A stretch of 37,925 nucleotides of DNA from Opitutales bacterium (GTDB lineage Bacteria > Verrucomicrobiota > Verrucomicrobiia > Opitutales > JABSRG01): the NCBI GenBank assembly GCA_028280845.1, contig JANQKZ010000048.1, positions 1 through 37,925 on the forward strand. Reading direction: 5' to 3'. Shown here in pieces: positions 2,420-37,925 of the stretch. The position numbers and the translations under genes are program-made. Every line of letters begins with the position of its first letter. Position 1 is the stretch's first letter. A model generated the notes under the pieces. The model ran no database searches and had not been told where the DNA came from. It was given only the letters and a program-made list of their open reading frames with translations.

Positions 2420-3376
2420 CTATTCAAGTGGGTTAGCATTGCGGTAGCGCAATAGGTAAAGTAGAGCCTCCAGGGCGGGTGTCGAGACTCCTATGGCTTG
2501 TCCCCTATGGAAAACTGCTCCCCAGAGTGATTCTACTTCAAGGGGCCGTCCCGCCCGATAATCCTGCAGGGTGGACGGCACAAAGGGCCCCAGCTTGGCC
2601 GTAACCTCAAATTGATGATCAATCCAGGAATCCGGAATCGAGACCCCATGAGCCAGGGCAACCTCATGGAGCTCACTGAGCAATTGCCTGGCCCACGCCA
2701 CCAGGTCCGGAGAATTCATAATCTCCTCAGTGTGAACACCACCCGCGGCTACCGAGATCCCGTTAAAGGGAATGTTCCAGTATAACTTTTTCCAGAGGGC
2801 GGTTTCGATGTCGGATTCTATTGTGACGGGGATCCCCTGCTCTTCAAATCCATGCTTCAACCCAGCCAACAGAGATTCGCATGAGCCGGTGGCAACACCA
2901 AAGACCAGACGCCCACGAAAATAGGGATATACCTGACCCGGTGCTACCCGTTCCAACCCGACATAAGCCAACCCGACCGCAATCGCATGATCCGGAAATG
3001 CCGCTATGAGTGGCTCCACATTGCCCAACCCGTTTTGAAAAGTAACCACCTGGGTCGAGGGACCAACCAGGGGCTGGATCCACTCTACTAGACCTGGGTT
3101 GGCAGTTGTTTTCAAGAATACGAGCACCACATCGCAGGGGCCAAGAGCTTCCGGACTTGCGTAGACTGAGAGAAACCGCTCCTGCCAGGCACCTTTCGGC
3201 CAAAGGACCCGCAGTCCTTTTGATTTCAACTCCCTAGCCTTACTCCGCGTCAGAAAATGAACATCAAGCCCCGCGCGCAACAAATGCGCTCCGTAGAACA
3301 GTCCCGTGGCTCCTGTACCCACAACGGCCACCCGACCCAAAGGAGCTGGAGATGATCGGTCGTGCACCAAGTTCAA
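2420..3376 (-). CDS. panE: 2-dehydropantoate 2-reductase (ketopantoate reductase)
   Basis: The 318-residue length is normal for the family. The enzyme reduces 2-dehydropantoate to pantoate with NADPH in the cytoplasm, a step of pantothenate/CoA synthesis. The N-terminal Rossmann glycine motif is seen as VAVVGTGATG (residues 16-25). The central FQNGLGN segment, the conserved lysine in ALWKKLYWN and the C-terminal helical domain with a conserved Glu near PLEVESLWGAV are all where the ApbA/PanE family has them. ATG 3376 overlaps the stop of the upstream PanC-like gene by four bases (ATGA), which indicates translational coupling. Related reductases with other 2-oxo substrates exist in this superfamily, but the PanC-like neighbour supports the pantoate assignment. 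Confidence 0.85.
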   Translation of the reverse strand: MNLVHDRSSPAPLGRVAVVGTGATGLFYGAHLLRAGLDVHFLTRSKARELKSKGLRVLWPKGAWQERFLSVYASPEALGPCDVVLVFLKTTANPGLVEWIQPLVGPSTQVVTFQNGLGNVEPLIAAFPDHAIAVGLAYVGLERVAPGQVYPYFRGRLVFGVATGSCESLLAGLKHGFEEQGIPVTIESDIETALWKKLYWNIPFNGISVAAGGVHTEEIMNSPDLVAWARQLLSELHEVALAHGVSIPDSWIDHQFEVTAKLGPFVPSTLQDYRAGRPLEVESLWGAVFHRGQAIGVSTPALEALLYLLRYRNANPLE

Positions 3377-4215
3377 AACTCAATATGGTCTATCAGCCGA
3401 ATCTGGTCGACCAAGACTCCTGTTTTTAAAATAGAACGTCCCGGTATAATCTCCCGCATCTCCTTCATCGTAAAGCGATCCACCACCAAGGCGTACAACA
3501 CATGCAGCCGACGGGTGTCCCGCATGACATTGATGGTTTCCGCTTCGATCCGGTCCACACTGGGATTCCCACCACTGTAAATCCGCTTTCCTGCCAGAAG
3601 CGCTGCGTATATCTGCACAGCATCCCGACGCTGGGTGGAATCCAGATATGCATTGCGCGCATCCGCCGCCAACCCATCTGCTTCCCGAACCGCAGGAACT
3701 GTTTCTATCTCCACCGGGAGAAAGAGGTTGTCGATCAATTGCCGAATCACAGCAATCCGCTGCATCTCATGCTCGGAATAGACAACCACGGATGGAGTCA
3801 GGAGGTGGATCAACTTGACAAAAGTAGTCGCCACTCCACGAAAATGATGGGGACGGGATACCCCGCAAAGCCCCTCAGCCAATCGAGTCTCCTGGACAAA
3901 GATGGATGCAGTCGGGGGATGAATAGCCTCCGCGGACGGAGCAAACACCGCATCCACGCCAAGCGCTTCACAGAGCCGCCGGTCCTCGTCCGGCTCTCGG
4001 GGAAACTGGCGGTAATCTTCATTGGGGCCAAACTCGAGGGGATCCACCAGGATAGAAACCACCACCTCGTCTGCCACCGCCTTCGCTTTTTCGATCACGG
4101 TGCCGTATCCTGCGGAAAGGACGCCTGACGTAGGAACCAGGGCAAGCCGCCCGCCTTCCTGTTTAGTTCGTTGGATGCGGGTTTGCATCCCTTCCACTGA
4201 ATCGATCCAATCCAT
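3373..4215 (-). CDS. PanC-like protein (pantoate--beta-alanine ligase fold) with degenerate active site
   Basis: At 280 residues it matches normal PanC length and aligns over the whole protein: RLALVPTSG (24-32), VVVSILVDPLEFGPNED (51-67), GLCGVSRPHHFRGVAT (115-130), VEIETVPAVREADGLA (168-183). PanC joins pantoate and beta-alanine using ATP. The residues that do this chemistry are largely replaced. The HxGH nucleotide motif is SAGY (34-37), and the Met before it is Ser30. The GEKD-x-QQ motif reads SEHEMQR (147-153), losing Lys, Asp and one of the pantoate-binding Gln. The other pantoate Gln is Glu61. The MSSRN loop reads AADARN (183-188). Substitutions sit only in these motifs while the scaffold is intact and in frame, so this is not a simple pseudogene. 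It is followed by panE with a 4-base overlap. It could be a pseudoenzyme, a regulator or an enzyme with changed chemistry. Confidence 0.8.
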   Translation of the reverse strand: MDWIDSVEGMQTRIQRTKQEGGRLALVPTSGVLSAGYGTVIEKAKAVADEVVVSILVDPLEFGPNEDYRQFPREPDEDRRLCEALGVDAVFAPSAEAIHPPTASIFVQETRLAEGLCGVSRPHHFRGVATTFVKLIHLLTPSVVVYSEHEMQRIAVIRQLIDNLFLPVEIETVPAVREADGLAADARNAYLDSTQRRDAVQIYAALLAGKRIYSGGNPSVDRIEAETINVMRDTRRLHVLYALVVDRFTMKEMREIIPGRSILKTGVLVDQIRLIDHIEF

Positions 4216-4306
4216 GACTGCCTTCCGGCCTACTTATTCTCGTTGGGAACAGACTTTTTATTATTTCAGTTGAAAGCCTGAAGCGCTTATGCATCCAGTG
4301 TCTACC

Positions 4307-5551
4307 ATGTCCGACTCCTATATCCAAAATCTTTTTGCAGAAAGAATTGGTGGGGCCTCCTACGGGAAGTCCCAGGCGATTTACAAGTTTGAGAAGATCA
4401 AACGGGCCAAAGCTGCTGCCCGGCAAGCCAAGCCCGACCTGACCCTTATCGACATGGGAGTGGGCGAACCGGACGAAATGGCATTTCCCCAAGTCGTAGC
4501 AACCCTGCAGCAGGAAGCAGCCAAGCCCGAAAATCGGGGGTATGCCGATAATGGGGGAATGGAATTTCGGGAAGCTGCCGTCCGCTACATGGAAGCCGTT
4601 TTCGGCGTGGCGGGTCTCGACCCCGCCCAACATGTGATCCACTCCATCGGTTCCAAAACAGCGCTTTCCCTGCTCCCCGCCTGCTATATTAATCCCGGCG
4701 ATGTCGTCCTCATGACGACTCCGGGCTACCCGGTCCTCGGCACCCATGGAAGCTACTACGGAGGAGAGGTTTACAATCTCCCCCTGACTCGGGAGAATGA
4801 TTTCCTGCCAGACCTCGAGGCCATCCCCGCAGACATCTTGGGCCGGGCCAAAATGCTTGTGCTCAATTACCCGAATAATCCCACGGGGGCCAGTGCCCCC
4901 CGCGAGTTTTTCGAGAAAGTGGTTCTATTCGCCAGAACCCATGAGATCGTGGTCATTCAGGACGCCGCCTATGCCGCCTTGATTTTCGAGGGAGAGCCCA
5001 TCTCCATTCTCCAGGTCCCGGGTGGGATCGATGTGGCGGTCGAGCTTCACTCGCTATCCAAGAGCTACAACATGACGGGATGGCGCATCGGCTTTGTCGT
5101 CGGTAATCCCCTCATGGTCCAGGCCTACGGCGATGTGAAAGATAACAGCGATTCCGGCCAGTTTCTCGGAATACAGAAGGCCGCGGCGGTCGCCCTGGAT
5201 CACCCGGAAATCACTCGAGAGATTACAGCCAAGTACTCACGCCGCATGGATCTCCTGGTAGACGCGCTCAACGACCTGGGATTCTCCGCCGAGAAGCCGA
5301 AGGGCAGTTTCTTCCTCTACGTCGCCGCTCCCAAGACAGCCACCCGCGATGGTTCCACTACCGCGTTTGAAACCGGGGAGGACTTCTCCCAATGGCTCAT
5401 CCATGAACAACTCATCTCCACCGTCCCCTGGGACAACGCCGGCTCTTACGTCCGCTTTTCCGTCACCTTCGCCGCCCGGGGCGAGCCAGCCGAAAAGGAG
5501 ATTATCGCAGAAATCAAAAGCCGGCTCAGCCCCTACCAATTCGACTTTTAG
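4307..5551 (+). CDS. dapL: LL-diaminopimelate aminotransferase
   Basis: This PLP-dependent fold-type I aminotransferase has about 414 residues from ATG 4307 (an in-frame ATG at 4289 would add six). DapL converts tetrahydrodipicolinate directly to LL-diaminopimelate, bypassing the succinylase/acetylase branch for lysine and peptidoglycan. Visible signatures are MGVGEPDEMAFP near the N-terminus, the substrate loop around ENRGYADNGG, LVLNYPNNPTGA, QDAAYAALIFEG, and the PLP-lysine motif SLSKSYNMTGWRIGF. The pathway is typical of the PVC group, Chlamydiae and plants, which fits the suspected taxonomy. No strong ribosome site precedes either start. The gene is divergent from the PanC-like gene, with a gap of about 75-90 bases holding both promoters. 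Confidence 0.88.
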   Translation: MSDSYIQNLFAERIGGASYGKSQAIYKFEKIKRAKAAARQAKPDLTLIDMGVGEPDEMAFPQVVATLQQEAAKPENRGYADNGGMEFREAAVRYMEAVFGVAGLDPAQHVIHSIGSKTALSLLPACYINPGDVVLMTTPGYPVLGTHGSYYGGEVYNLPLTRENDFLPDLEAIPADILGRAKMLVLNYPNNPTGASAPREFFEKVVLFARTHEIVVIQDAAYAALIFEGEPISILQVPGGIDVAVELHSLSKSYNMTGWRIGFVVGNPLMVQAYGDVKDNSDSGQFLGIQKAAAVALDHPEITREITAKYSRRMDLLVDALNDLGFSAEKPKGSFFLYVAAPKTATRDGSTTAFETGEDFSQWLIHEQLISTVPWDNAGSYVRFSVTFAARGEPAEKEIIAEIKSRLSPYQFDF

Positions 5552-13136: not shown

Positions 13137-14903
13137 TCAATCCACCCGCTCCACATAGGCATAGTAGGCACTGAATTGTTCCCCAATCTCATTTTCAAAC
13201 CAGGAGCCAAGATTCAGCCGACCTGACTCTAAGACCACATCGAATGAAACTTCCCGGTCCCCAGGATGGACGGCTTGGTTGAATGTCTCCCCATTCAGGG
13301 AAATGATGGCCTGGGTCGCATCAAACCCGACTCCAGGGGTTTCCCTGAATGCCCGGAGACCTGGAACCGGCTCCCCTGAAGGAATGGCCTCATCGATTGC
13401 GGCTCCTGCTTCCCGTGGCCAACGGGCAATTGTGATTTCATATTCACCCCCTGCCTCTACTTCTAAAGCCCAGTGGCCAAGATCTCCAGCTCCGCTCCGG
13501 ATATGGGACTGGTGCCAGGGAACCTGCCCCTCCGCAATAATCCAATCATGCGCCGTCAAATGACTCGGGTTCTCTGCGGGGTGCCCCACGATGATCCTGG
13601 CCTCGTTTGAGAAGGAATCTACCATGCTGGCCCACCAGAGCTCATAGGCCTCCCTCAACCGCTCGACCATCTCGGGGTATTCCGCGCCCAGGTCCTGTTT
13701 CTGTCCCGGGTCCTTCTTGATCGCGTAGAGCTCTTTTCCATTCACGAGCCGCCACTCCTCCGTCATTACGCTGCTCTTTCTCCACTTGATCGGATCGACC
13801 ACCCGCTGCGAATCCGTGACCAGCACCCGGTCCGGCCATGGAGTGGGTATATCAAACAAAAGAGGGATCAGGGATCGTCCATCAAAGCTGTAGTTGTAAT
13901 CCATGGTCAGCCCACATAGATCCAGCAGCGTCGGCAGAATATCTACATGAGCGGTTAACCGGTCCACATCGCGCCCCACGTTCAGCCCACCCTTGGGCCA
14001 GTGGATGAAGAAGGGCACTCGATGACCGCCGTCATACTCACTCGCCTTTTTGCCCCGCATGCCCGCATTGAAAACGGTTTCGCCAGTGGCCGTCCCATTA
14101 TCGGTCATGAAAATGAAGATGGTGTTCTCCGCTAATCCCTCATCCTTGAGCCACCTACGCAAGTCCCCCACCCTGTCATCTATATTTGCAATCATGCCAT
14201 AGAATACAGCCACACGGGATTCCAACCCCATCGCCTCGTAGGGCTTCCAATACTCGTCCGGGCAATGGAAGGGACTATGGGGGGCATTGGTGGAGATATA
14301 GGCAAAAAAGGGGTTCCCTGTGAGCGAGCTCGCCTGAATAAATCGTTTCGCCTCCATGAAAAACACATCTGTGCAGTACCCTTCAAATCGGCGGGCTTCC
14401 CCGTTGTGCATATAGACTTCATTAAAATAGGCGTTATCCCAGTAATCCGGGGTCTGTCCCGTCCCTCCACCGCGATGGTATACCGTTTCCTGAAACCCGC
14501 GATCTTCCGGCCGGAACGGATAGTTGTCGCCCAGATGCCATTTCCCGAACATCCCGGTGACATAGCCATTTTGGGCAAACACCTCGGCCAGGGTGGTCGC
14601 TCCCTCCTTGAGGAAGGACCGACCCATGATGGTATGCCAGGGACCCGCTCGATTGGCAAAATGGCCGCTCATGAGAGCGCCTCGCGTCGGAGCACAAGTG
14701 GGGCTCACATGGAAATCGGTCAGCCGGGTGCTTTCGGCATACAATGCATCCAGGGCCGGGGTTTTCAATATCGGGTTCCCATGGCAGGACAAATCTCCAT
14801 AACCCTGATCGTCTGTGATAACCAGGATGACATTGGGCGATGAGGCGTAAAGGGAAAGGCTAAAGAGAACTCCCCAAACCATGTGGATCATGAACTGTTT
14901 CAT
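13137..14903 (-). CDS. Secreted sulfatase (arylsulfatase A-type, formylglycine Cys)
   Basis: The protein has 588 residues from ATG 14903; an earlier in-frame start at 14951 would put a non-signal stretch ahead of the signal peptide MKQFMIHMVWGVLFSLSLYA. The mature protein starts SSPNVILVITDDQGYGD, with metal-binding Asp31/32. The sulfatase signature is CAPTR (70-74, a C-x-P-x-R motif), where Cys70 would be converted to formylglycine. FGKWHLG (Lys121, His123), a conserved His in NAPHSPFH and FMTDNGT complete the active site. After about residue 460 comes an extra beta-rich C-terminal domain (HWALEVEAGGEYEITIARWP). It hydrolyses sulfate esters in the periplasm or outside the cell; the substrate is unknown. 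The adjacent fucosidase and BNR protein suggest a sulfated, fucose-containing or algal polysaccharide. No sulfatase-maturing enzyme gene is in the window. Confidence 0.92.
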   Translation of the reverse strand: MKQFMIHMVWGVLFSLSLYASSPNVILVITDDQGYGDLSCHGNPILKTPALDALYAESTRLTDFHVSPTCAPTRGALMSGHFANRAGPWHTIMGRSFLKEGATTLAEVFAQNGYVTGMFGKWHLGDNYPFRPEDRGFQETVYHRGGGTGQTPDYWDNAYFNEVYMHNGEARRFEGYCTDVFFMEAKRFIQASSLTGNPFFAYISTNAPHSPFHCPDEYWKPYEAMGLESRVAVFYGMIANIDDRVGDLRRWLKDEGLAENTIFIFMTDNGTATGETVFNAGMRGKKASEYDGGHRVPFFIHWPKGGLNVGRDVDRLTAHVDILPTLLDLCGLTMDYNYSFDGRSLIPLLFDIPTPWPDRVLVTDSQRVVDPIKWRKSSVMTEEWRLVNGKELYAIKKDPGQKQDLGAEYPEMVERLREAYELWWASMVDSFSNEARIIVGHPAENPSHLTAHDWIIAEGQVPWHQSHIRSGAGDLGHWALEVEAGGEYEITIARWPREAGAAIDEAIPSGEPVPGLRAFRETPGVGFDATQAIISLNGETFNQAVHPGDREVSFDVVLESGRLNLGSWFENEIGEQFSAYYAYVERVD

Positions 14904-14991
14904 AATTTTAAACGATCGTAGGAGCGGCCTCGCGCCACGACAACCACTCAATATTGTTAGCGGCCCCGCATCTCATACCCAGGATATGGGC

Positions 14992-15000
14992 TGCATTGCG
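14992..15000 (+). promoter_or_regulatory. Isolated copy of the TGCATTGCG motif between fucosidase and sulfatase genes
   Basis: TGCATTGCG lies one base beyond the fucosidase stop and about 90 bases upstream of the sulfatase start. The same octamer TGCATTGC precedes the three PEP-CTERM genes and the sigma-54 regulator gene. No convincing -24/-12 promoter follows on the minus strand (the best GG-N10-GC, at 14932-14946, lacks the TTGC part), so this may be chance. Confidence 0.2.
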
Positions 15001-19524: not shown

Positions 19525-20955
19525 TTACAACTTACCGGCTTTCCGCCAGCGGTACAGGGTAGTCGGGTGGATTCCCAGTTGAGCGGCTGTCCAGGTGAGA
19601 TCGTTTCCACTCTGGATCAAGAGATCTCGGGCCAACACCAGTTTTTCCTTTTTATTGAGGGGACCTGTCATGCCCATAAAAGGCTGCGAGGTGGACTGGA
19701 AGCCCGATGGGCTCACCCCTTGCTGGGGCCCGCCAAAGGGAGGTCGAGTGGTTCCGGTATGGGTGACCAAAGCCTGCCCGGGGAAATAAGCACTTCCTCC
19801 TGCCCCTTCAGGCGTCCCCGACTCCATCGCGGGCAGGGACCACCAGTCCGCACGCATGATGGGTCCGTCATAGTGAATCGCAAGTCGTTCGATGTTCTGC
19901 TTGAGTTCACGGACATTTCCAGGCCAATGATAAGCCTGAAATTTTTGAATGAGCTCCGGCTCCAGGGATTCGAAATTTTTGCCCATCCGAACCGAAGCCT
20001 CACGCAGAAAAACCAATGCCAGGTCGGGCACGTCGTCTGGTCGATGACGAAGGGGAGCCACATTCAGAATTACCTCGGAGAGCCGGTAGTATAAATCCAA
20101 TCGGAAACGCCCCCGCTCTGAGTCCGTCTTCAGGTCCCGGTTCGTGGCCGAAATGAGCCGAACATTTACTTTATAATCCCGGGTACTGCCTACCCTCCGC
20201 GCAGATCCGTTTTCCAGAAAGCGTAATAGCTTAGGCTGCAGCCCAATATCCATCTCCCCAATTTCGTCGAGAAAGAGGGTACCGCCATCAGCCTCCTCCA
20301 CCAGTCCGGGCTTCGTTTGGTTCGCCCCAGTAAAGGCTCCCTTTTCTGCCCCGAATAATTCCGACTCCATCAACTCCTTCGGGATGGCCGCACAATTGAC
20401 GATTACCATTTCCCCCCGCCCAAAGGCGCGCTGCGTGGCTTCCGCTACCCGCTCCTTACCCGTTCCCGATTCTCCCAGGATCAACACCGATGCGCTCGTT
20501 GGTCCAATTCGCTGGATCGACTCCCGTAAAGCCTTCATAGTCGATGACCGACCCACTAAGATTTCCTCACCAATGTCCACCTCGCTTCCGTAGAGCTGCC
20601 ACCACAAACTTTGGGCATTCGCCGCCTTCTGAATAGCCTCCAGGATCCGAGCCTCACTGTCGACTTGGTCAATGACATCAAAGGCCCCATCCCGGGCTGC
20701 TTGCACAATCCGGCGAGAGTCCAGCTGCTCTCCATACACGATATAATACCGACTGCTCCGCGCCAGGGAAACGCGCCATTCCCCCCATTTGGGATTCTCA
20801 ATGAGCTCATGCGGCACCATGTAGACCAGATCCGTCGTCCGACTGCTCAGGGCTTTGACCTTCCCCGGGGGTTCCACCTGGACCCGGACCCCCAAACTCT
20901 GCAAATCATGGACAAATACTACATTCTTGTCTTGGCTTAAACATGATACCCGCAT
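19525..20955 (-). CDS. Sigma-54 enhancer-binding transcriptional activator with degenerate receiver-like domain
   Basis: The 476-residue protein consists of an N-terminal alpha/beta domain (1-110), an AAA+ domain (about 130-365) and a C-terminal Fis-type helix-turn-helix (TWTAAQLGIHPTTLYRWRKA). Walker A is GESGTGKE (161-168), the sigma-54 contact loop GAFTGA is intact (206-211), and Walker B is TLFLDEIGE (226-234). The N-domain resembles a response-regulator receiver (TDLVYMVP at 41-48, GAFDVIDQ at 90-97). It has a hydrophobic residue (Met46/Val47) where the phosphorylated Asp should be, and Gln97 where the conserved Lys is expected. It is therefore unlikely to be phosphorylated in the usual way. 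A Gly/Pro/Thr-rich linker precedes the HTH. A perfect inverted repeat built on TGCATT lies 14 bases upstream of the start, and related motifs precede the PEP-CTERM genes. Confidence 0.9.
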   Translation of the reverse strand: MRVSCLSQDKNVVFVHDLQSLGVRVQVEPPGKVKALSSRTTDLVYMVPHELIENPKWGEWRVSLARSSRYYIVYGEQLDSRRIVQAARDGAFDVIDQVDSEARILEAIQKAANAQSLWWQLYGSEVDIGEEILVGRSSTMKALRESIQRIGPTSASVLILGESGTGKERVAEATQRAFGRGEMVIVNCAAIPKELMESELFGAEKGAFTGANQTKPGLVEEADGGTLFLDEIGEMDIGLQPKLLRFLENGSARRVGSTRDYKVNVRLISATNRDLKTDSERGRFRLDLYYRLSEVILNVAPLRHRPDDVPDLALVFLREASVRMGKNFESLEPELIQKFQAYHWPGNVRELKQNIERLAIHYDGPIMRADWWSLPAMESGTPEGAGGSAYFPGQALVTHTGTTRPPFGGPQQGVSPSGFQSTSQPFMGMTGPLNKKEKLVLARDLLIQSGNDLTWTAAQLGIHPTTLYRWRKAGKL

Positions 20956-20968
20956 TGCGCTTCAAGGT

Positions 20969-20990
20969 AATGCAATAAAATTGCATTGCA
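20969..20990. promoter_or_regulatory. Perfect 8-3-8 inverted repeat upstream of the sigma-54 regulator gene
   Basis: AATGCAAT (20969-20976), spacer AAA, ATTGCATT (20980-20987), continuing to give TGCATTGCA at 20982-20990. It lies 14-35 bases upstream of the regulator start codon (20955) and also in the gap to the divergent marC gene. A related CGCATTGCG overlaps the start codon. The position suits an autoregulatory operator. The same 9-mer occurs upstream of two PEP-CTERM genes, and with one change upstream of the third. Confidence 0.55.
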
Positions 20991-21071
20991 AGATTACATT
21001 AGCACCATTGGGCCCTTGCCCCTTCCCTTTATCTGCGATCCAATTCTCCTCCATTCTTCCTTTCCCTGCCC

Positions 21072-29657: not shown

Positions 29658-29758
29658 ACCTGTCTCTCTTATACCCCCCAGTCTCCGTTGAAAAGCTCCC
29701 TTCTTTCCAAAATTTTCATAAATGAAAAATTTTTACTGATATAAAAATTTAATACAAT

Positions 29759-29767
29759 TGCATTGCA
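29759..29767 (+). promoter_or_regulatory. Putative activator site (TGCATTGCA) of the first PEP-CTERM gene
   Basis: TGCATTGCA lies about 100 bases upstream of the -24 element at 29861, a normal distance for a sigma-54 enhancer site. The identical 9-mer occurs at 20982 (regulator gene) and 34182. Confidence 0.5.
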
Positions 29768-29860
29768 TTTTTACTAAAATAAAAAATTTCCGTAGACGTC
29801 AAAAAATTTAATAAATGTAAGTAATTACTATTAAATATCTTACAGATTTCATTAGTTTAT

Positions 29861-29876
29861 TGGAATAGCTTATGCA
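29861..29876 (+). promoter_or_regulatory. Putative sigma-54 (-24/-12) promoter of the first PEP-CTERM gene
   Basis: TGGAATAGCTTATGCA has GG at 29862-29863 and GC at 29874-29875, separated by exactly ten bases. It is embedded in an inverted repeat TTGGAAT (29860-29866) / ATTCCAA (29876-29882). AAATATCTTA, starting 28 bases upstream of the T of TGG, aligns with CAATGACTTA before the other two genes. Confidence 0.6.
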
Positions 29877-29888
29877 TTCCAATGAGGC

Positions 29889-31223
29889 ATGAAATTACCA
29901 TGCATCGCCCTCAGGCAACGATTGACCGCTATATGGTGGATCAGCCTCCTGATCCTGGGCCTTTCCTTTAAAGATAAGGTGCTGGGTGAGGCGCGGCCTC
30001 TATCGGGGCTCCAACCGATTGGGACATTTTCCGAAACTTTCGATGCTGAGGATAAGGAGGATGAGGCCGAGGGCAACCCTCCCTCCCTCCATCAAGCCCC
30101 CACCTACAGCTGGGATGGGGAGGCCGGCCTCTGGGGCTACGGGATCTGGGGAGAGGGCACTTCAAGTCAGGGAAACTGGGTGGGTAACGAAAACCCGATC
30201 GATTATGCAGATGTCACGTTTGGTAACGATGTGGTTGGAGGAAATCTGAATGTGCTCATCTGGGGAGGGGATCGCGAACGAGTGGTCAGCTCCATGACCT
30301 TTGACAACCCTACCGGCTATACAATTTCCGGTGGAACCATCGTTATGGATTCCAATGGCAAGCAGCCCTTTACCTCAATCGTAGTGAATGACCGCAATGG
30401 TCGTTACGGAACCACACATACCATCTCCAGCAATATTCTCGCGCGGGAGAATTTACATATCGAGAACCGCACCGGATCCACAACCCTTCAAATCAACGGG
30501 AGCCTCAACCTGGAAGGCAATTCGCTCCAGATTTCCGGAAAGGGAACCACTACCCTCGCAGGCCAGACTATTAAGGGGGATCAAGTCACGAAAGAGGGAT
30601 CGGGTACCCTCAGCGTGACTGGTAACCTCGAGGCCAGGGTTATCACGGTAAACGGGGGATCCATGCGGCTCAACAACGAGACCGGCAATGCCCTTACCAC
30701 CGAGCAAGTCATTCTACGCGGAGGCACGCTCTTTTTGGATAAGGACAATCAGATCGACAACTCCGCCACCCTGGAGCTGGCTGGGGGAACCCTGGCCACC
30801 GGAGGCTATAGCGACACACTCGGATCCCTCACCTTGTCCAACACCTCGGTTATCGATTTAGGCAATGGAAGCAGCGTGCTTCACTTTGATTCCAGCGCCT
30901 CCCAGGACTGGTCGGGAGAACTCCATATTACCAACTGGGATGGCAATGCCCATTCCGGTAATGGCAACGACCAGATTGTTTTTGGTGATGATGGCGAGGG
31001 GCTCAGTCAGGACCAACTCAGTCAGATTCGATTCATTAATCCGGAAGGCTATGAGGAGGGAATCTATGGCGCCATGATTTTGGAAAACGGAGAAGTGGTT
31101 CCCCTTCCTGTCCCCGTTCCGGAACCTGGCACCGCCATCGGTGCCATCGCCCTCTTCGGCCTCGCCCTCCTTCACGAGCGAAAACGCATCCGAGCCTGGT
31201 GGTCTCGCCGCTCTCAGGACTAG
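29889..31223 (+). CDS. PEP-CTERM surface protein with autotransporter-type beta repeats (no lectin domain)
   Basis: The 444-residue protein has an N-terminal hydrophobic signal (LTAIWWISLLILGLSF). A WxGxGxW-type start of the repeat region follows (YSWDGEAG), then about 250 residues of short beta-strand repeats rich in Gly, Thr and Asn (GSLNLEGNSLQISGKGTTTL). A conserved module of about 110 residues comes next (LELAGGTLATGG to ILENGEVVPLP). It ends with the sorting tail VPEPGTAIGAIALFGLALL and then HERKRIRAWW, a PEP-CTERM signal read by exosortase. It is exported, and the tail is presumably cleaved and attached at the outer surface. No exosortase gene lies in the window. ATG 29889 is only 14 bases after the -12 GC, so the mRNA may be almost leaderless. 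GAGG stands one base before the ATG, too close to act as a ribosome site. Confidence 0.82.
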   Translation: MKLPCIALRQRLTAIWWISLLILGLSFKDKVLGEARPLSGLQPIGTFSETFDAEDKEDEAEGNPPSLHQAPTYSWDGEAGLWGYGIWGEGTSSQGNWVGNENPIDYADVTFGNDVVGGNLNVLIWGGDRERVVSSMTFDNPTGYTISGGTIVMDSNGKQPFTSIVVNDRNGRYGTTHTISSNILARENLHIENRTGSTTLQINGSLNLEGNSLQISGKGTTTLAGQTIKGDQVTKEGSGTLSVTGNLEARVITVNGGSMRLNNETGNALTTEQVILRGGTLFLDKDNQIDNSATLELAGGTLATGGYSDTLGSLTLSNTSVIDLGNGSSVLHFDSSASQDWSGELHITNWDGNAHSGNGNDQIVFGDDGEGLSQDQLSQIRFINPEGYEEGIYGAMILENGEVVPLPVPVPEPGTAIGAIALFGLALLHERKRIRAWWSRRSQD

Positions 31224-31270
31224 CTTACAGATCATATAGGTTATCTTTTCAAAGTTGCATAGCTTGTTAA

Positions 31271-31287
31271 TGCATTGCGTTTGCAAT
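31271..31287 (+). promoter_or_regulatory. Putative activator site of the second PEP-CTERM gene
   Basis: TGCATTGCG (31271-31279) leads into an inverted repeat ATTGC (31274-31278), four bases, GCAAT (31283-31287). It is about 120 bases upstream of the -24 element and resembles the 20969 repeat half-sites. Confidence 0.45.
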
Positions 31288-31394
31288 TTTTAAGAATAAC
31301 TATCGCTTATTCAGATTTCCTATATTTTGAAAAAACATTTTACATTTTTTTTAGTCAATTGTACTTCAATGACTTACGAATCAATTTAGGATAG

Positions 31395-31410
31395 TGGTAT
31401 AGCGACTGCA
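31395..31410 (+). promoter_or_regulatory. Putative sigma-54 (-24/-12) promoter of the second PEP-CTERM gene
   Basis: TGGTATAGCGACTGCA has GG at 31396-31397 and GC at 31408-31409 with ten bases between. It agrees with the first promoter at 12 of 16 positions. CAATGACTTA lies at 31367-31376, starting 28 bases upstream. The start codon at 31423 is 14 bases after the final C of the GC, the same as in the first gene. Confidence 0.62.
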
Positions 31411-31422
31411 ACGTGTGGGCGT

Positions 31423-34143
31423 ATGCAGCGCACAGTTCCATGCCAATTGTTCAAAACCAGCCGACTTCTGGGAGCGGTCACGGCATTGCTGTTCGCGCTA
31501 TCCAATTCCACTATATGGGGCCAGTTCATCTTCGATGAAGACTTTAAAGGCACGACAGCCGACGGGTGGATTTTCGGAACACAAAACGGAGGCTATACCC
31601 CCGAACTCACCGCCCGCGAGGGAATCGACCAGGACGGGGACGGATGGCTTCGTCTGACGACCAATGGCGGCAATCAATCCAACTTCGCCTATCTGGACAA
31701 CACCTTCTCCGCCGCCAACAACGAAGTCAAAGTCACCATCGACTTCACCATCTGGGGCGGCAACGGCGCAGACGGCCTCACTTTTTTTCTTTACGACGGT
31801 GACCAGGCTTTTGACACCGGGGCATTCGGCGGCTCTCTGGGTTATGCCAACCGCTCAGGAGTAGACGGCGTTGCCGGCGGCTACCTCAGCGTTGGTCTCG
31901 ACACCTACGGCAATTACTCCAACCCCACTGAAGGCCGTAACGGCGGAGTCGGTTTCAACCCCGATCAAATCGTAGTACGCGGACCCGGAAACGGACAGAA
32001 CGGATACGAATACCTGGCCGGCACCAACGGAATTAACACCACCATACCGGACGACCCGTTCACCCCGGAGGATGAATCCACCATCGACAGCCTTGGGGTA
32101 GACCTCCAATTCAATGCGCGCCCCGAAACCGGAACCGCCACCCAGAACAACTACTTTACCGTCGAAATCCTCCTCACCACCGCAGACCTGCTCACCGTGC
32201 GCTTCGACGACAATCCCGCAGACGGCCTCAACCTGACCGATCTGTTCACCGTGGACATGAGCAGCTTCGACCGGCCCGAGAATTTCGGTTTCGGATTCAC
32301 CGCCTCCACCGGAGGACTCAATAACTACCACGAAATCCGCAACCTCGAGATCACCACCACCACGGATCCCGTGCTTCCCCCCACCCCGGATTTCTTCTAT
32401 TGGGATAATGGCATCAACAATGGCCTGAATGGTGACAGCCTGTGGAGCACCGCCACCAATTGGGACGGTGCCCCCGGAAACACCGATCCCGATTCCGTGC
32501 CCCCCGTTCAAGCTGACATCATTTTTGACAGTACTTACGTGAGCACCAATCAGTCGATCGACCTCGATGGCGACCGCGAAGTACACTCCATCACCTTCGA
32601 CGACAACAACGCCTACACCCTCGAAGCCAACGGCGACGAGCTGACCTTCGCCAATGACCAGAATCCAGGCGACGCCTTCATCCGGGTGGAAAGCTCCAGT
32701 TCCGCCGAGCATACCATCGAAACCGATATCGATCTGGAAACAGACCTGGTGGTGGACAACAACGGAACCGGCAATGTCGGACTCACCCTCGACGGTGATA
32801 TCGCTATAAATAACAACACCCTGACCTTCGACGGCACCGGCACCACCGAGGTCCTTGAAGACATCCGGGGCACCGGCGACTTCGTCAAACAGGGCCAGGG
32901 CACCGTCATTCTCGATGCCAACGACAACGACTTCTCCGGCGACGCCATCATCAAGCAGGGCACCGTCATCGCCAACCCCAACAACAACCGGATCCACTTC
33001 GGCAACAATAGCAATAACCGCAACGTTCTCGGCTCTGGTGACGTCATCCTTGATGGCGGCAACTTTCAAGCTTCGACCACCGGCAACCAGGACATCCGCT
33101 TTTATCAGGACTTCACCGTGCAAAACGGATCGGTCGGCACCCTGGATTCAGACGATGACTTCAGCTTCCAGGGCGGATCGGTCACCACAGTCGACAACGG
33201 CACCCTCAACCTGATCGCCGACGACGATACCATCATGAGCGGATCCGCCACCTGGACCGTGAGCAACGATGGACGGATCAACATCAGCGGCACCGGTGGC
33301 GGCAGCCGCACCCGCCTCGACGGCACCGTCAACCTGAACAGCGGCGGCACCATTTTCTCCGACGCTCCCGACACCGAGCTGGACAACGGATTGACTATCA
33401 ATGGCGACGCCAACGGCAACAACGGCCTCCTCGCCATAACCGGTGACCTGCGGGTCGAAAACATCACCGTGAACAACCGCTTCGACCTGACCATCGACGC
33501 CGACCAAGACACCGTCATTGAAACCGACGGCAACAACCGCGCCCTCAACGGGGTCGGCACCCTCCTCGTCGATAACGATGGCAACACCCTCACCGTCCAA
33601 ACCCAGATCACCCAAATCAATGCCGAAGTACTCGACGTCCGCGGCGGCACCATCCTCTTTACCGACGACGACCAGTTCCGCAATAACACCACCGACGTCA
33701 TCCTCAGCGGCGGAGCCACCATCGACACCAACGGCAGCGACCAGCAATTCGCCTCCCTCACCATGAACTCCTCTTCCATCATCGATCTCGGCGAAGGGGG
33801 CAGCATCCTGGAGTTCTCCCAAAGTGACACCAACTCCTGGGACGGCGAACTCGCCATTGTGAACTGGGACGGCCGGTACACCACCGGCGGGGGCAGCGAC
33901 CAAATCATCTTCGGATCCAATGTGAATGGCCTAGACGCCAGCCAAATTGACCGCATCCGCTTCTACAACCCCGAAGGCCTGGCCCCCGGAATCTACGGAG
34001 CCCAAATCCTCAGCAACGGAGAAATCGTGCCGACGGCCACTCCCGTTCCCGAGCCCGGCACCGTCATCGGCGCCATCGCCCTCCTCGCTCTTGCCGCCTT
34101 TCGCGAACGCAAACGCTGGCTGCCCCTCCTCAAAAAGGATTAA
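31423..34143 (+). CDS. PEP-CTERM surface protein with L-type lectin domain and autotransporter repeats
   Basis: The 906-residue protein has a signal peptide (LLGAVTALLFALSNSTIWG). A bacterial legume-type (L-type) lectin domain follows at about residues 35-310, seen in FIFDEDF, WGGNGADGLTFFLYDG, GAFGGSLGYANRSGVDG and GGYLSVGLDTYGNYSN. Then comes FFYWDNG..NWDG, and a parallel-beta repeat region with PATR-type units such as GTGDFVKQGQGTVILDAND (roughly 330-790). The shared C-terminal module (SLTMNSSSIIDLGEGGSIL to ILSNGEIVP) precedes the PEP-CTERM tail PVPEPGTVIGAIALLALAAF, ending in RERKR. It would be exported, cleaved by exosortase and displayed. Lectin plus beta-helix suggests glycan binding or adhesion. 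The ATG lies about two bases after the predicted transcription start. Confidence 0.88.
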   Translation: MQRTVPCQLFKTSRLLGAVTALLFALSNSTIWGQFIFDEDFKGTTADGWIFGTQNGGYTPELTAREGIDQDGDGWLRLTTNGGNQSNFAYLDNTFSAANNEVKVTIDFTIWGGNGADGLTFFLYDGDQAFDTGAFGGSLGYANRSGVDGVAGGYLSVGLDTYGNYSNPTEGRNGGVGFNPDQIVVRGPGNGQNGYEYLAGTNGINTTIPDDPFTPEDESTIDSLGVDLQFNARPETGTATQNNYFTVEILLTTADLLTVRFDDNPADGLNLTDLFTVDMSSFDRPENFGFGFTASTGGLNNYHEIRNLEITTTTDPVLPPTPDFFYWDNGINNGLNGDSLWSTATNWDGAPGNTDPDSVPPVQADIIFDSTYVSTNQSIDLDGDREVHSITFDDNNAYTLEANGDELTFANDQNPGDAFIRVESSSSAEHTIETDIDLETDLVVDNNGTGNVGLTLDGDIAINNNTLTFDGTGTTEVLEDIRGTGDFVKQGQGTVILDANDNDFSGDAIIKQGTVIANPNNNRIHFGNNSNNRNVLGSGDVILDGGNFQASTTGNQDIRFYQDFTVQNGSVGTLDSDDDFSFQGGSVTTVDNGTLNLIADDDTIMSGSATWTVSNDGRINISGTGGGSRTRLDGTVNLNSGGTIFSDAPDTELDNGLTINGDANGNNGLLAITGDLRVENITVNNRFDLTIDADQDTVIETDGNNRALNGVGTLLVDNDGNTLTVQTQITQINAEVLDVRGGTILFTDDDQFRNNTTDVILSGGATIDTNGSDQQFASLTMNSSSIIDLGEGGSILEFSQSDTNSWDGELAIVNWDGRYTTGGGSDQIIFGSNVNGLDASQIDRIRFYNPEGLAPGIYGAQILSNGEIVPTATPVPEPGTVIGAIALLALAAFRERKRWLPLLKKD

Positions 34144-34170
34144 CCCGCCACAGGCGGGCATTTTGTATTT
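34144..34170 (+). terminator. Intrinsic terminator of the second PEP-CTERM gene
   Basis: CCCGCC (34144-34149), loop ACA, GGCGGG (34153-34158), then a T-rich stretch (CATTTTGTATTT). It starts one base after the stop codon of the 906-residue gene. Confidence 0.7.
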
Positions 34171-34171
34171 C

Positions 34172-34190
34172 GCAATTATAATGCATTGCA
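34172..34190 (+). promoter_or_regulatory. Putative activator site of the third PEP-CTERM gene
   Basis: GCAAT (34172-34176) and ATTGC (34185-34189) form an inverted pair. TGCATTGCA occupies 34182-34190, identical to the sites at 20982 and 29759. It is about 110 bases upstream of the -24 element. Confidence 0.48.
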
Positions 34191-34295
34191 AAAAGCCTGC
34201 TTAGCTTTGCTTTTTCATAATTAACTCAACATTGATTTATACAATATTATTTTAATACATTATATAACAATGACTTATCAATTTCTCATATAGTA

Positions 34296-34311
34296 CGGAT
34301 CAATTCTTGCT
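34296..34311 (+). promoter_or_regulatory. Putative sigma-54 (-24/-12) promoter of the third PEP-CTERM gene
   Basis: CGGATCAATTCTTGCT has GG at 34297-34298 and GC at 34309-34310, ten bases apart; the -12 element TTGC matches the consensus exactly. CAATGACTTA lies at 34268-34277, again starting 28 bases upstream of the -24 trinucleotide. Confidence 0.58.
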
Positions 34312-34340
34312 AAATTAAAGATGTAAATCGCAGGACTCCA

Positions 34341-37300
34341 TTGGGTGAACCCACCTACTTACTTCGCTTGCATCACCAAATCCAGTTCAAATCCCCTTCA
34401 AACCGCCGGGGCCCATCCTCCCGGTGGGTCGCTGTGGTTTGGTTTTGGGCATGGGGAGTCCTGCCTTCCTGGGGTCAGTTGGTGGTCTCCGAATCCTTTA
34501 CCGGCACGGCCGCACCGAACTGGGTGCTGGGCACTGAGAGTGGTGGATACACCCCGCAGTTAACCGCTGGCGCCGGCATCGATACCCCTGGCGACGGATG
34601 GCTCCGCCTCACCACCCCTGGAGCCGACCAATCCAATTACGCCTACCTCAACGACTCCTTTACGGCAGCCAATACCAACATTTCAGTCACCTTCGATTTC
34701 ACCATGTGGGGTGGAAATGGCGCGGACGGCATATCCTTCTTCCTCTACGACGCAGACATCCTGAACACGACTGGATTTGATCCCGGCGCATTCGGGGGCT
34801 CGTTGGGTTATGCAAACAAGACCACCATCGATGGTCTGGATGGTGGATACCTTGGTGTGGGAATCGATAAGTTTGGGAATTTTTCCAATGACGACGAGGG
34901 CCGTAATGGTGGCCTCAATAGCAACCTTAACCCCAATTCCATCGGAGTTCGCGGCCCGGATACCGGAGCCGTCGGTGGAACGGTCGGCGGTGGTTGGGAT
35001 TACCTGGGCGGAACCGGCGTCAACGGTGTCCCGGACCTCGACTTTGCCAGCCGGCCGATAGCCGGAACCGGCACCGAGTTCAATTACTACACCATCCGTA
35101 TTGAGCTTGACGTGAATGACCAGCTCTCAGTCACCTTCGACTCAGACACCAGCGATGCTACCACGATTGACCAGCTCTCCCCGCTTTTCTCTCTGGACAT
35201 GAGTTCATTTGCCCGCCCAAACGAACTCAGCCTGGGCTACGCCGCCTCTACCGGAGGATCCAATAACTACCACGAACTGCGCAACCTCAGTGTGGTCGCC
35301 ACCTTTGCCGGCTTCCTCTGGGACAACGAAACGGACGACAACCTATGGGGAACCGGAGACAACTGGTCCGGCAACACCGTCCCCCCCGACCAATACGACG
35401 TCATCCTGGAGAACACCTACGTAAACTCCGCGCAAAACATAGAGCTCGACGGGGACAAAATCGTCCAGTCCCTCTCCATCGACGCGCCCTTTGCCTACAC
35501 GATCGATCCTAATGGAGGCGCGCCCGGCGACCTGATCTTCAATAACAGCATCGCCGACGGCGATATGGTCCTCAACGTGACCGAGGTCAACGGGGACGCC
35601 GCCCATATCATTAATGCCGATATCGTGGCGACGGCCGGCCTGACGAACTCCGGTCTGGCCATCGACACCAACACCACCAGCTCCTTCACCGTGAACGGAG
35701 GCCTGACCCTGAACGACAATACCCTCACGGTGCGGGGCCTGGGGGATACCCTCATCAATGGTCAGATCACCGGAACCGCCGGCCTGGTCAAGCAGGATAC
35801 CGGCACCTTGACCCTGACAGACAACAACAATAGCTACACTGGCGGCACCACGGTCAATCTCGGCACCCTGTTGGTCGATGCCACCGGAACCAGCCAAAAC
35901 GTCGACCTCGGCCGGGTACGGGCCAACCGCAATTTCCTCGGCACCGAGGGCTTCACCGTGAACAACGGCGGAATCCTGCGAGTGAACTCCGCCGCCTCCC
36001 GCGACATCAACTTCTGGAGCGACAGCGGCGACACGTTCGATGTGAATTCTGGCGGAACCCTTTCCCTTGACTCGGGCCGAAACGTCAACATCCGCTCCGG
36101 CGCGGAGGTAAACATCGATGGCGGCCTCTTCGAAGCCGCGACAGACAATTCCTTCATTATTCAGGGCACGCTCGACTTGAGCAATGGCGGCACCTTGCAG
36201 GGCAAGCCCGGCGAGCTCATCGCAATGAATGATTTTTCCCTGACCGGAACCATGAACCTGTCAGGAGGGAGCACCGCCATCCTCGACCCGGGCGACGACG
36301 TCGTCTTTGGATCCGCCTCTACGCTCACCGTTGACAACAGCAACCTGACCATTGACATCAACACGGGTACCGACCCGCTCGCCAACGCCAATCGCGATGT
36401 CAGTTTCTCCGGCAACGCCACTATTTCCAACAACTCGGCCGTCGATATCGATGCCTACCGCCGGATAAGCTTTAACAGCGGCAGCGTGACCAACTTCAAC
36501 GACAGCACCGTCAACATCGACACCCGAGACGACGTCCGAGTCCTTTCCGGTTCCACCGTTAACCTATCCAATGCAACGGGTGGCTTCACCGCTCAAAACG
36601 GCTCCGACTCCGATGTCACCCTTGCCGGCGATCTCAATATCTCCAATGGCTCTAACTTCACTCTTACCGCCCAGGACGATGTCCAGATCAACACCCCAGG
36701 AGTCCTCACCGTCGACACCGGCAGTACCCTGAATGTCGTCACCACGGACGACTTCCGGGTTAACAGCGGGGCCACCCTGGTCGTCGATGGCGCCACCCTC
36801 GATGTCGACGCCAATTCCGGCGCCGACGGAGATGTCAATATCACGGGAACCGCCACCATCCAAAATAGCAGCATCGCCACTTTCGATACGGACGATGACG
36901 CCATTCTCGGCACCAACGGAATTTTAAATGTCAACGGGAGCACGGCCACGTTTAACGTTGGCGATGACTTCACCCAGAACGCCGGATCCGCCGTAAATCT
37001 GGATAACGGATCGGTCACGATTTCCGGCAACACGGCCGGTGCCGTCTTTAACGGCAACGATACCGGAACCATTACCCTGACCAATGGAAGCGATCTCACC
37101 ATTGACAAGGATGTCTCCAACCTGCGCGGGACCATCTCCATTGATGGCACCTCCACTTTGACCTCCAGCTCTGCCCAAACCGACCTGGAAAATAACACCA
37201 CGCTTAATGGCCCAGGCACTCTCGAGGTCACGGGCGCCACTTTCCAGATCGGTACCGGCACCTCCCTTGTGAGTGCTCCCAATATCGATATTCGCCCAGG

Positions 37301-37925
37301 ACAGGATTCCGTCATACAGAAAACCAGTGGGGGTACCACAACCTTTACCGGAGCCGGCACGATCACCATCGATAACGATGGCTTCACCACCACGATTACC
37401 AACGATTTCACCTCCTTTGAAGCCAACACCCTCGACATCACTGGAGGCACCCTCCTTTTCTCCGCCGATAACACAATCAATGCCGGCACCACCAACCTCG
37501 CCCTCTCCGGCGGCACGCTCGCCACGGGCGGTACCGACCAGACCCTCGCCGCCCTCACGCTCAACGCCGACTCCGCCCTCGACCTGGGATCCGGCGACAG
37601 CATTATCAATTTCTCCGACAGCTCCAGCACCACCTGGGATGAAAACAGCACCCTCCAGATCACCAACTGGTCCGGCAACGCATCCGGCGGCGGGACCGAT
37701 CAAGTCATTTTTGGAAGCGCCAGTGGCCTCGATGATGTTCAGCTCAGCCAGATCAGGTTCGTGAACCCAGATGGATTCGCTCCTGGCATCTACAATGCCC
37801 GTATCCTGCCCAGCGGAGAAATCGTCCCTGTCCCCGAGCCCAGCACCATCATCGCCTGCATCGGCCCCATCGCCCTCGGTCTCATCCGCGAACGCAAACG
37901 CATCCAGGACCTGATCACCCGGTTG
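34341..37925 (+). CDS. PEP-CTERM lectin/autotransporter-repeat surface protein (lacks only its last few codons)
   Basis: The frame is open from a TAA at 34311-34313 to the window end (1195 codons from TTG 34341). No ATG precedes the signal peptide in this frame. TTG 34341 is the best start because AGGA (34332-34335) lies five bases before it and about 20 bases follow the predicted transcription start. TTG 34368 is an alternative. The signal sequence is WVAVVWFWAWGVLPSWGQ. The L-type lectin domain follows (WGGNGADGISFFLYDAD, GAFGGSLGYANKTTIDG, YLGVGIDKFGNFSND), then a long beta-helix with a PATR unit (GLVKQDTGTLTLTDNNNSY) and many DDV-type strand repeats. The C-terminal module (LALSGGTLATGGTDQTL onward) and PEP-CTERM tail VPEPSTIIACIGPIALGLI-RERKR follow. 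It is close to the 906-residue protein in architecture but has a longer repeat region. Codon use and GC content differ little from its neighbours. Confidence 0.83.
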   Translation, partial: MGEPTYLLRLHHQIQFKSPSNRRGPSSRWVAVVWFWAWGVLPSWGQLVVSESFTGTAAPNWVLGTESGGYTPQLTAGAGIDTPGDGWLRLTTPGADQSNYAYLNDSFTAANTNISVTFDFTMWGGNGADGISFFLYDADILNTTGFDPGAFGGSLGYANKTTIDGLDGGYLGVGIDKFGNFSNDDEGRNGGLNSNLNPNSIGVRGPDTGAVGGTVGGGWDYLGGTGVNGVPDLDFASRPIAGTGTEFNYYTIRIELDVNDQLSVTFDSDTSDATTIDQLSPLFSLDMSSFARPNELSLGYAASTGGSNNYHELRNLSVVATFAGFLWDNETDDNLWGTGDNWSGNTVPPDQYDVILENTYVNSAQNIELDGDKIVQSLSIDAPFAYTIDPNGGAPGDLIFNNSIADGDMVLNVTEVNGDAAHIINADIVATAGLTNSGLAIDTNTTSSFTVNGGLTLNDNTLTVRGLGDTLINGQITGTAGLVKQDTGTLTLTDNNNSYTGGTTVNLGTLLVDATGTSQNVDLGRVRANRNFLGTEGFTVNNGGILRVNSAASRDINFWSDSGDTFDVNSGGTLSLDSGRNVNIRSGAEVNIDGGLFEAATDNSFIIQGTLDLSNGGTLQGKPGELIAMNDFSLTGTMNLSGGSTAILDPGDDVVFGSASTLTVDNSNLTIDINTGTDPLANANRDVSFSGNATISNNSAVDIDAYRRISFNSGSVTNFNDSTVNIDTRDDVRVLSGSTVNLSNATGGFTAQNGSDSDVTLAGDLNISNGSNFTLTAQDDVQINTPGVLTVDTGSTLNVVTTDDFRVNSGATLVVDGATLDVDANSGADGDVNITGTATIQNSSIATFDTDDDAILGTNGILNVNGSTATFNVGDDFTQNAGSAVNLDNGSVTISGNTAGAVFNGNDTGTITLTNGSDLTIDKDVSNLRGTISIDGTSTLTSSSAQTDLENNTTLNGPGTLEVTGATFQIGTGTSLVSAPNIDIRPGQDSVIQKTSGGTTTFTGAGTITIDNDGFTTTITNDFTSFEANTLDITGGTLLFSADNTINAGTTNLALSGGTLATGGTDQTLAALTLNADSALDLGSGDSIINFSDSSSTTWDENSTLQITNWSGNASGGGTDQVIFGSASGLDDVQLSQIRFVNPDGFAPGIYNARILPSGEIVPVPEPSTIIACIGPIALGLIRERKRIQDLITRL

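Follow-up and report, generated by a model that had tools for sequence, protein, structure and literature searches.

Three tandem PEP-CTERM genes and a nearby sigma-54 activator gene

The stretch of DNA analyzed here (the window, 37,925 nucleotides) is one entire contig (C20) of a 62-contig, 4.79-Mb genome, labeled G000. It carries three tandem genes for surface proteins, hereafter G1, G2 and G3, and, about 9 kb from them, a gene for an activator of the NtrC type:

19525 to 20955, minus strand: NtrC-like sigma-54 activator (enhancer-binding protein), 476 aa
29889 to 31223, plus strand: G1, 444-aa surface protein with the C-terminal order VPEPG, transmembrane segment, RERKR (PEP-CTERM type)
31423 to 34143, plus strand: G2, 906-aa autotransporter-repeat PEP-CTERM protein (TIGR02601)
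34341 to 37925, plus strand: G3, PEP-CTERM protein of at least 1195 aa, TTG start, open at the contig end

The C-termini of the three proteins align with 54-56% identity and end in VPEP(G/S), a transmembrane segment and RERKR. The PEP motif, transmembrane segment and basic tail are identified in G2 by TIGR02595, whose cut-off its C-terminus exceeds with 17.6 bits, and in G1 and G3 by alignment; G1 gave zero Pfam or NCBIfam matches. G2 and G3 also share their N-terminal domain (31423-35400), which is about 300 aa long and in G2 shows only a weak legume-lectin-like match (E 0.0035). The 3' end of G3 (37760-37925) is repeated on contig C36 (G000:C36:432-539) after unrelated sequence, with 58 nt exact within a longer near-identical stretch; either this end of the gene was duplicated or the assembly broke within repeats. 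A PEP-CTERM profile search and a C-terminal profile search, combined, place the number of PEP-CTERM genes in the genome at about 18.

A shared promoter layout upstream of G1, G2 and G3

The leaders of all three genes present the same elements in the same order: TGCATTGC, found at 29759, 31271 and 34182 in a base-by-base check, then CTTA, then YGG-N9-TGC. The distance from CTTA to the YGG is exactly 22 nt in each case.

29833 to 29842, plus strand: AAATATCTTA element of G1, with CTTA 22 nt before TGG
29861 to 29875, plus strand: -24/-12 element of G1, TGGAATAGCTTATGC
31367 to 31376, plus strand: CAATGACTTA element of G2
31395 to 31409, plus strand: -24/-12 element of G2, TGGTATAGCGACTGC
34268 to 34277, plus strand: CAATGACTTA element of G3
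34296 to 34310, plus strand: -24/-12 element of G3, CGGATCAATTCTTGC, the weakest -24 in the set

A first-pass annotation of this DNA had described these leaders as a common sigma-54 layout. All of its coordinates, including those of GG-N10-GC (29862/29874, 31396/31408 and 34297/34309), proved correct base by base, and so did the identity of the G1 and G2 promoters at 12 of 16 positions and the extra element 28 nt before the YGG (CAATGACTTA in G2 and G3, AAATATCTTA in G1). Its gap of 98-125 nt depends on the way of counting; from the end of TGCATTGC to the GG, the distances are 95, 117 and 107 nt.

RpoN is encoded in the same genome (contig C19, 199.9 bits in a profile search). An IHF site at the CTTA element was considered, and inspection by eye gave no good fit. 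The coding sequences of G1 and G2 begin 13 nt past the -12 GC (29875-29889, 31409-31423), so their transcripts would be almost leaderless if both starts and promoters are right. The same distance is seen on contig C19 of a related genome, G008, and one of 11 nt on contig C103 of another, G009.

Placement of the layout in the genome

Within the window, TGCATTGC occurs six times against 1.33 expected, a number reached in 0 of 100 shuffles. When the leaders were shuffled by dinucleotides, the pattern CTTA-N18-YGG-N9-TGC appeared with a frequency of 0.005% (G1), 0.035% (G2) and 0.035% (G3), a test that is partly circular because CTTA was picked from these very leaders. Across the 4.79 Mb, this strict pattern matches 13 times and its reverse 18 times, so its frequency alone is nothing unusual. 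Only four of the 13 lie in the leader directly before a PEP-CTERM gene, namely those of G1, G2, G3 and one further gene, first found through the PEP-CTERM profile and independently of the motif:

C23:123 to about 1260, minus strand: PEP-CTERM gene with the strict layout

The remaining matches fall within open frames or away from a gene start; one of them, on C55, is followed after 11 nt by a GTG frame, but its upstream side resembles coding sequence. It is the placement of the strict matches, rather than their number, that is the non-chance feature.

GG-N10-GC had been called common by chance and its combined spacing not. TGCATTGC-N80-110-GG-N10-GC taken alone is unspecific: used as a regulon finder, it returned 10 matches, mostly at other genes. 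The variant AATGACTTA-N16-20-GG-N10-GC occurs genome-wide before G2 and G3 only. Outside the window, the C23 gene is the one PEP-CTERM gene of the genome with the layout; about 14 other PEP-CTERM genes or fragments do not carry it. The surface-protein regulon proposed in the first-pass annotation gains from the shared layout, the presence of RpoN and the recurrence outside the window. It has to be redrawn in its extent, since only four of about 18 PEP-CTERM genes have the layout, which is therefore not that of the whole PEP-CTERM regulon, and since other genes are members.

The upstream element is part of a dyad

When G000 was compared with G009, a genome of 1.9 Mb from another family, TGCATTGC turned out to belong to a dyad, TTGCA-N1/2-TGCAA. 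Contig C103 of G009 has GCATTGCATCTGCAATGC and contig C25 has TTGCAATTGCATTGCGAATGCATTGCAA, and TGG-N9-TGC follows each of them. The corresponding features of the window are:

20969 to 20991, minus strand: dyad in the activator leader, TTGCAATGCAA plus AATGCAAT-TTT-ATTGCATT
29758 to 29768, plus strand: G1 upstream dyad TTGCATTGCAT, one mismatch, centre 97.5 nt before the -24
31270 to 31286, plus strand: G2 upstream dyad ATGCATTGCGTTTGCAA (TTGCGTTTGCAA, one mismatch), centre 114 nt before the -24
34181 to 34191, plus strand: G3 upstream dyad ATGCATTGCAA, one mismatch, centre 109.5 nt before the -24

Six dyads with one mismatch or none are present in the window, against 2.0 expected: three in the leaders of G1-G3, one in the activator leader and two others (19446, 36195). 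This excess is modest, and it is the positions that carry weight. TGCATTGC is also present at 14992-14999; a sulfatase-like gene on the minus strand (13137-14951) starts 41 nt downstream of it.

The combination of dyad and -24/-12 element was observed at eight promoters in three genomes, G000 and two from two further families. These belong to G1, G2, G3, the C23 PEP-CTERM gene (whose dyad has two mismatches), two PEP-CTERM genes of G009, one gene of G008 and a sigma-factor gene of G000:

G000 contig C47: FliA/WhiG sigma gene with the whole layout, CTTA 23 nt before TGGCATTATGCATGC

The dyad centres lie 68-135 nt before the -24, which is the usual enhancer distance, and no other conserved element was seen there; the helical phasing of the dyad relative to the -24 is not significant. 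All these promoters have a TGG-N9-TGC (GG-N10-GC) core except that of G3, which has CGG. The CTTA element is less well conserved outside G000. The C47 sigma gene adjoins MCE/ABC-transport-like genes, and no flagellar gene was seen next to it in a reading by eye. Contig C19 of G008 has two dyads and a consensus TGGCACACCTTATGC; behind them lie genes for two tandem paralogous proteins of 162 and 165 aa (3168-3654, 3943-4438), the first with no Pfam match.

These data bear on two other explanations of the layout. According to the first, each leader was copied along with its gene by tandem duplication, and what the leaders share is a functionless remnant of common descent. G1-G3 are indeed tandem paralogs by the identity of their C-termini. 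Their dyad-to-promoter spacing nevertheless varies (97.5-114), BLAST detected no second copy of the G3 leader, and unrelated genes bear the layout, namely the sigma gene on C47 and, on C23, a PEP-CTERM gene missed by the C-terminal profile; we regard descent alone as highly improbable. According to the second, the activator does bind the dyad, but some of the genes, in particular G3, have GG-N10-GC by chance and are transcribed from a different promoter. GG-N10-GC is common, the -24 of G3 is CGG, and the starts of G1 and G2 leave almost no 5' leader. This explanation is nonetheless unlikely in view of the TGC at -12 and the fixed 22-nt distance to CTTA, both found in all four PEP-CTERM genes with the layout, and of the TGGCA consensus cores at C23, C47, G009 C25 and G008.

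The candidate activator and the dyad in its own leader

The 476-aa activator consists of a pseudo-receiver domain (residues 1 to about 125), an AAA+ domain and a Fis-type HTH (IHPTTLYRWRKAGKL). Its AAA+ domain (PF00158, 206 bits) contains the Walker A motif GESGTGKE and GAFTGA, and together with the C-terminal HTH these features mark it as a bEBP. The N-terminal domain is predicted to adopt a receiver fold (pLDDT 91), and the PDB entries that match it best are receivers of response regulators, DctD, FixJ and NtrC1 among them. In 14 orthologs, the alignment, read by eye, shows neither the acidic pair nor the phospho-acceptor Asp nor the Lys. A receiver fold that lacks these phosphorylation residues makes a kinase-independent setting of activity probable. 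The recognition helix, HPTTLYRWRK, is nearly invariant among orthologs.

Eight full activators are encoded in G000 and three in G009, with two ortholog pairs between the genomes; the G009 ortholog of the window activator has 53% identity and a near-identical recognition helix. Of 177 genomes from the order, 19 encode a full-length ortholog. A dyad with at most one mismatch is present in 12 of the 17 readable ortholog leaders, against 0.78 expected from shuffling, and a perfect one in 9 of 17, against 0.06, although the true significance of these counts is lower because related species are not independent. The dyads are always located 35-58 nt before the start. Leaders bearing them span five families (f1, f7, f8, f9 and f20), the form varying between N1 and N2, and among the matches listed, a GTDB relative of the activator (Verrucomicrobia AV5) has GCATTGCGAACGCAATGC in its leader. 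The dyad is absent from the ortholog leaders of G001 and of one genus (G068, G082, G103, G116), and none of the eight leaders of other activators has it.

The window activator was also scored as a possible PrsR and rejected, reaching 256.9 bits against the TIGR02915 cut-off of 502.6. Five of the eight G000 activators were scored, and the other four also stay below this value (412, 420, 395 and 294 bits). The earlier suggestion that the regulator differs from the PrsK/PrsR pair therefore holds for the candidate in the window, which reaches about half the PrsR cut-off.

PhaR as a possible alternative dyad-binding protein

The main alternative is that a different protein recognizes the dyad, namely PhaR, a regulator bound to PHB granules. 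Until PHB builds up, it would control, mostly as a repressor, the genes for the activator, the surface proteins, the sigma factor and the exosortase. The sigma-54 promoters would then be real and have their enhancer elsewhere. In S. meliloti, the published PhaR motif is YGCRNYGCR flanked by AT-rich arms, as in the phaP2 site ATTGCATTGCAC, and PhaR controls exopolysaccharide (EPS) genes in that species (PMC12542648). At G1-G3, TGCATTGC(A/G) fits this motif exactly. PhaR is encoded in G000 as well (PF07879, 75.5 bits), beside a gene that we call phasin-like from its place and look, as it has no Pfam match:

G000:C18:27348-33348, around 30348: phaR/phasin-like locus, with leader dyads TTGCATTTGCAA and TTGCAAACGCAA

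These two dyads flank a sigma-70-like TTGACC-N18-TAAAAT in the phasin-like leader. They are, however, of the N2 form and so a misfit to YGCRNYGCR, as are the N2 dyads of many activator leaders. Among the matches listed, the dyad contexts of eight other genomes include no phaR or phasin homolog. In addition, a sigma-54 promoter needs an enhancer, and no other shared element was seen at enhancer distance in these leaders. The dyad is, moreover, enriched before the orthologs of one activator and not before other activators. Its position does not discriminate, because in S. meliloti the distance between PhaR site and start ranges from 13 nt to several hundred (PMC12542648). Altogether, we consider PhaR control possible though rather doubtful. 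Both proteins could also act, for example with PhaR on the activator gene.

Further dyad-associated genes in G000 and its relatives

A search for perfect dyads covered nine genomes, and their contexts were read among the matches listed. In this set, perfect dyads in leaders stand mostly before activator, FliA/WhiG sigma, exosortase or PEP-CTERM genes. The sigma gene is preceded by a dyad in four genomes (G000, G038, G137 and G053); two of these proteins were scored and exceed the TIGR02479 cut-off, and the others are homologous by tblastn. Exosortase genes follow a dyad in G093 and G128 (TIGR04178 above cut-off in both, PF09721 also in G093), with no convincing sigma-54 site at these dyads, and a PEP-CTERM gene follows a perfect one in G009. 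Perfect dyads were also seen before genes for a pseudopilin, a LacI-type regulator, a STAS protein and a 162-aa protein. A/T-centred perfect dyads are often found in leaders. G/C-centred ones lie almost only inside genes and were treated as background.

The layout was not found before any of the PEP-CTERM genes read from f4 and f20 relatives, the activator-bearing f20 relatives included. CGAYA was examined as a common box of the relatives' PEP-CTERM genes and dropped (9 of 39, against 4.4 expected). The pattern TAAR-N16-CCGAT corresponds to the sigma-28 promoter type of E. coli. It is seen before 4 of 58 PEP-CTERM leaders against 0.12 expected; for off-by-one spacing the count is 2, against 0.24. 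The four are the leader of a PEP-CTERM gene on contig C13 of G000 and leaders in G093, G038 and G103, all genomes with the activator. These sigma-28-like promoters are weak, suggestive support for a cascade.

A candidate circuit for surface-protein expression

We propose, with a probability of about 0.6, that the NtrC-like activator of the window drives the G1-G3 set through the dyad and RpoN promoters. What the sequences themselves show is the layout, the fact that it recurs and the dyads in activator leaders; the use of RpoN, the identity of the dyad-binding protein, the direction of control and the cascade are the parts that we infer. G1-G3 would be transcribed by RpoN (sigma-54) polymerase from the YGG-N9-TGC promoters, and an NtrC-like activator, most likely the product of 19525-20955, would use the dyad as its enhancer. 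The activity of this protein would probably be set by its amount or by a partner, not by a kinase. By binding the dyad in its own leader, it may regulate itself, probably negatively. In G000, the circuit would switch on four PEP-CTERM genes and the FliA/WhiG sigma gene, and with a sigma gene among the targets, the signal may be relayed from sigma-54 to sigma-28 in a cascade.

Because PEP-CTERM, sigma or exosortase genes of related families are preceded by this dyad as well, the display of the surface coat is likely under the control of this circuit in the verrucomicrobial order. More tentatively, and with less than even odds, there may be an order-wide circuit in Verrucomicrobiota in which a self-regulating, kinase-independent activator acts on PEP-CTERM genes directly, on further PEP-CTERM genes through FliA/WhiG and, in some lineages, on exosortase. 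The analysis names a candidate activator, defines the dyad and lists targets. If the proposal is true, a sigma-54 activator is linked to a FliA/WhiG sigma in a non-flagellar-looking setting; if PhaR is the regulator instead, surface coats are perhaps linked to carbon storage. In the open-access literature, we found no description of a PEP-CTERM/exosortase circuit with sigma factors in Verrucomicrobia.

Comparison with known regulatory systems

NtrC-family activators are known to control their own gene, as NtrC does, and as there, one dyad would serve here in two places, far upstream of its targets as an enhancer and close to the start of the activator gene; the pseudo-receiver and the target genes are different. 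In flagellar sigma-54 to sigma-28 cascades, a sigma-54 activator is set before a FliA/WhiG sigma gene. The same order is suggested here, but the sigma gene lies by MCE/ABC-transport-like genes and the targets are surface proteins.

The PhaR (AniA) regulon of S. meliloti has nearly the same palindrome and includes surface-polysaccharide genes among its targets (PMC12542648). In that report, by contrast, PhaR is mostly a repressor and is not tied to sigma-54 promoters or PEP-CTERM genes (PMC12542648).

Another close system is that of PrsK/PrsR, in which sigma-54 and an upstream motif at PEP-CTERM genes are shared only by Proteobacteria among PEP-CTERM species (Haft et al. 2006, PMC1569441). The proteobacterial motif comprises 17 nt ending in TTTACA, with a mean spacer of 62.8 nt, and the system includes a kinase (PMC1569441); RpoN dependence of a PEP-CTERM gene, pepA, has been demonstrated in Aquincola (PMC9850573). 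Verrucomicrobium spinosum has 65 PEP-CTERM genes and no PrsK/R/T in the table of Haft et al. (PMC1569441). Both systems would combine single PEP-CTERM genes with long leaders, a -24/-12 box, an upstream enhancer motif and an NtrC-like activator with a Fis-type HTH. They differ in the motif, which here is the dyad TTGCA-N1/2-TGCAA instead of one ending in TTTACA, and in the activator, which here scores at half the PrsR cut-off, has no phosphorylation residues and is encoded among housekeeping genes; the set here also includes a sigma-factor gene. Haft et al. (2006, PMC1569441) left the control of PEP-CTERM genes outside Proteobacteria open, and the candidate circuit described here would address that gap.
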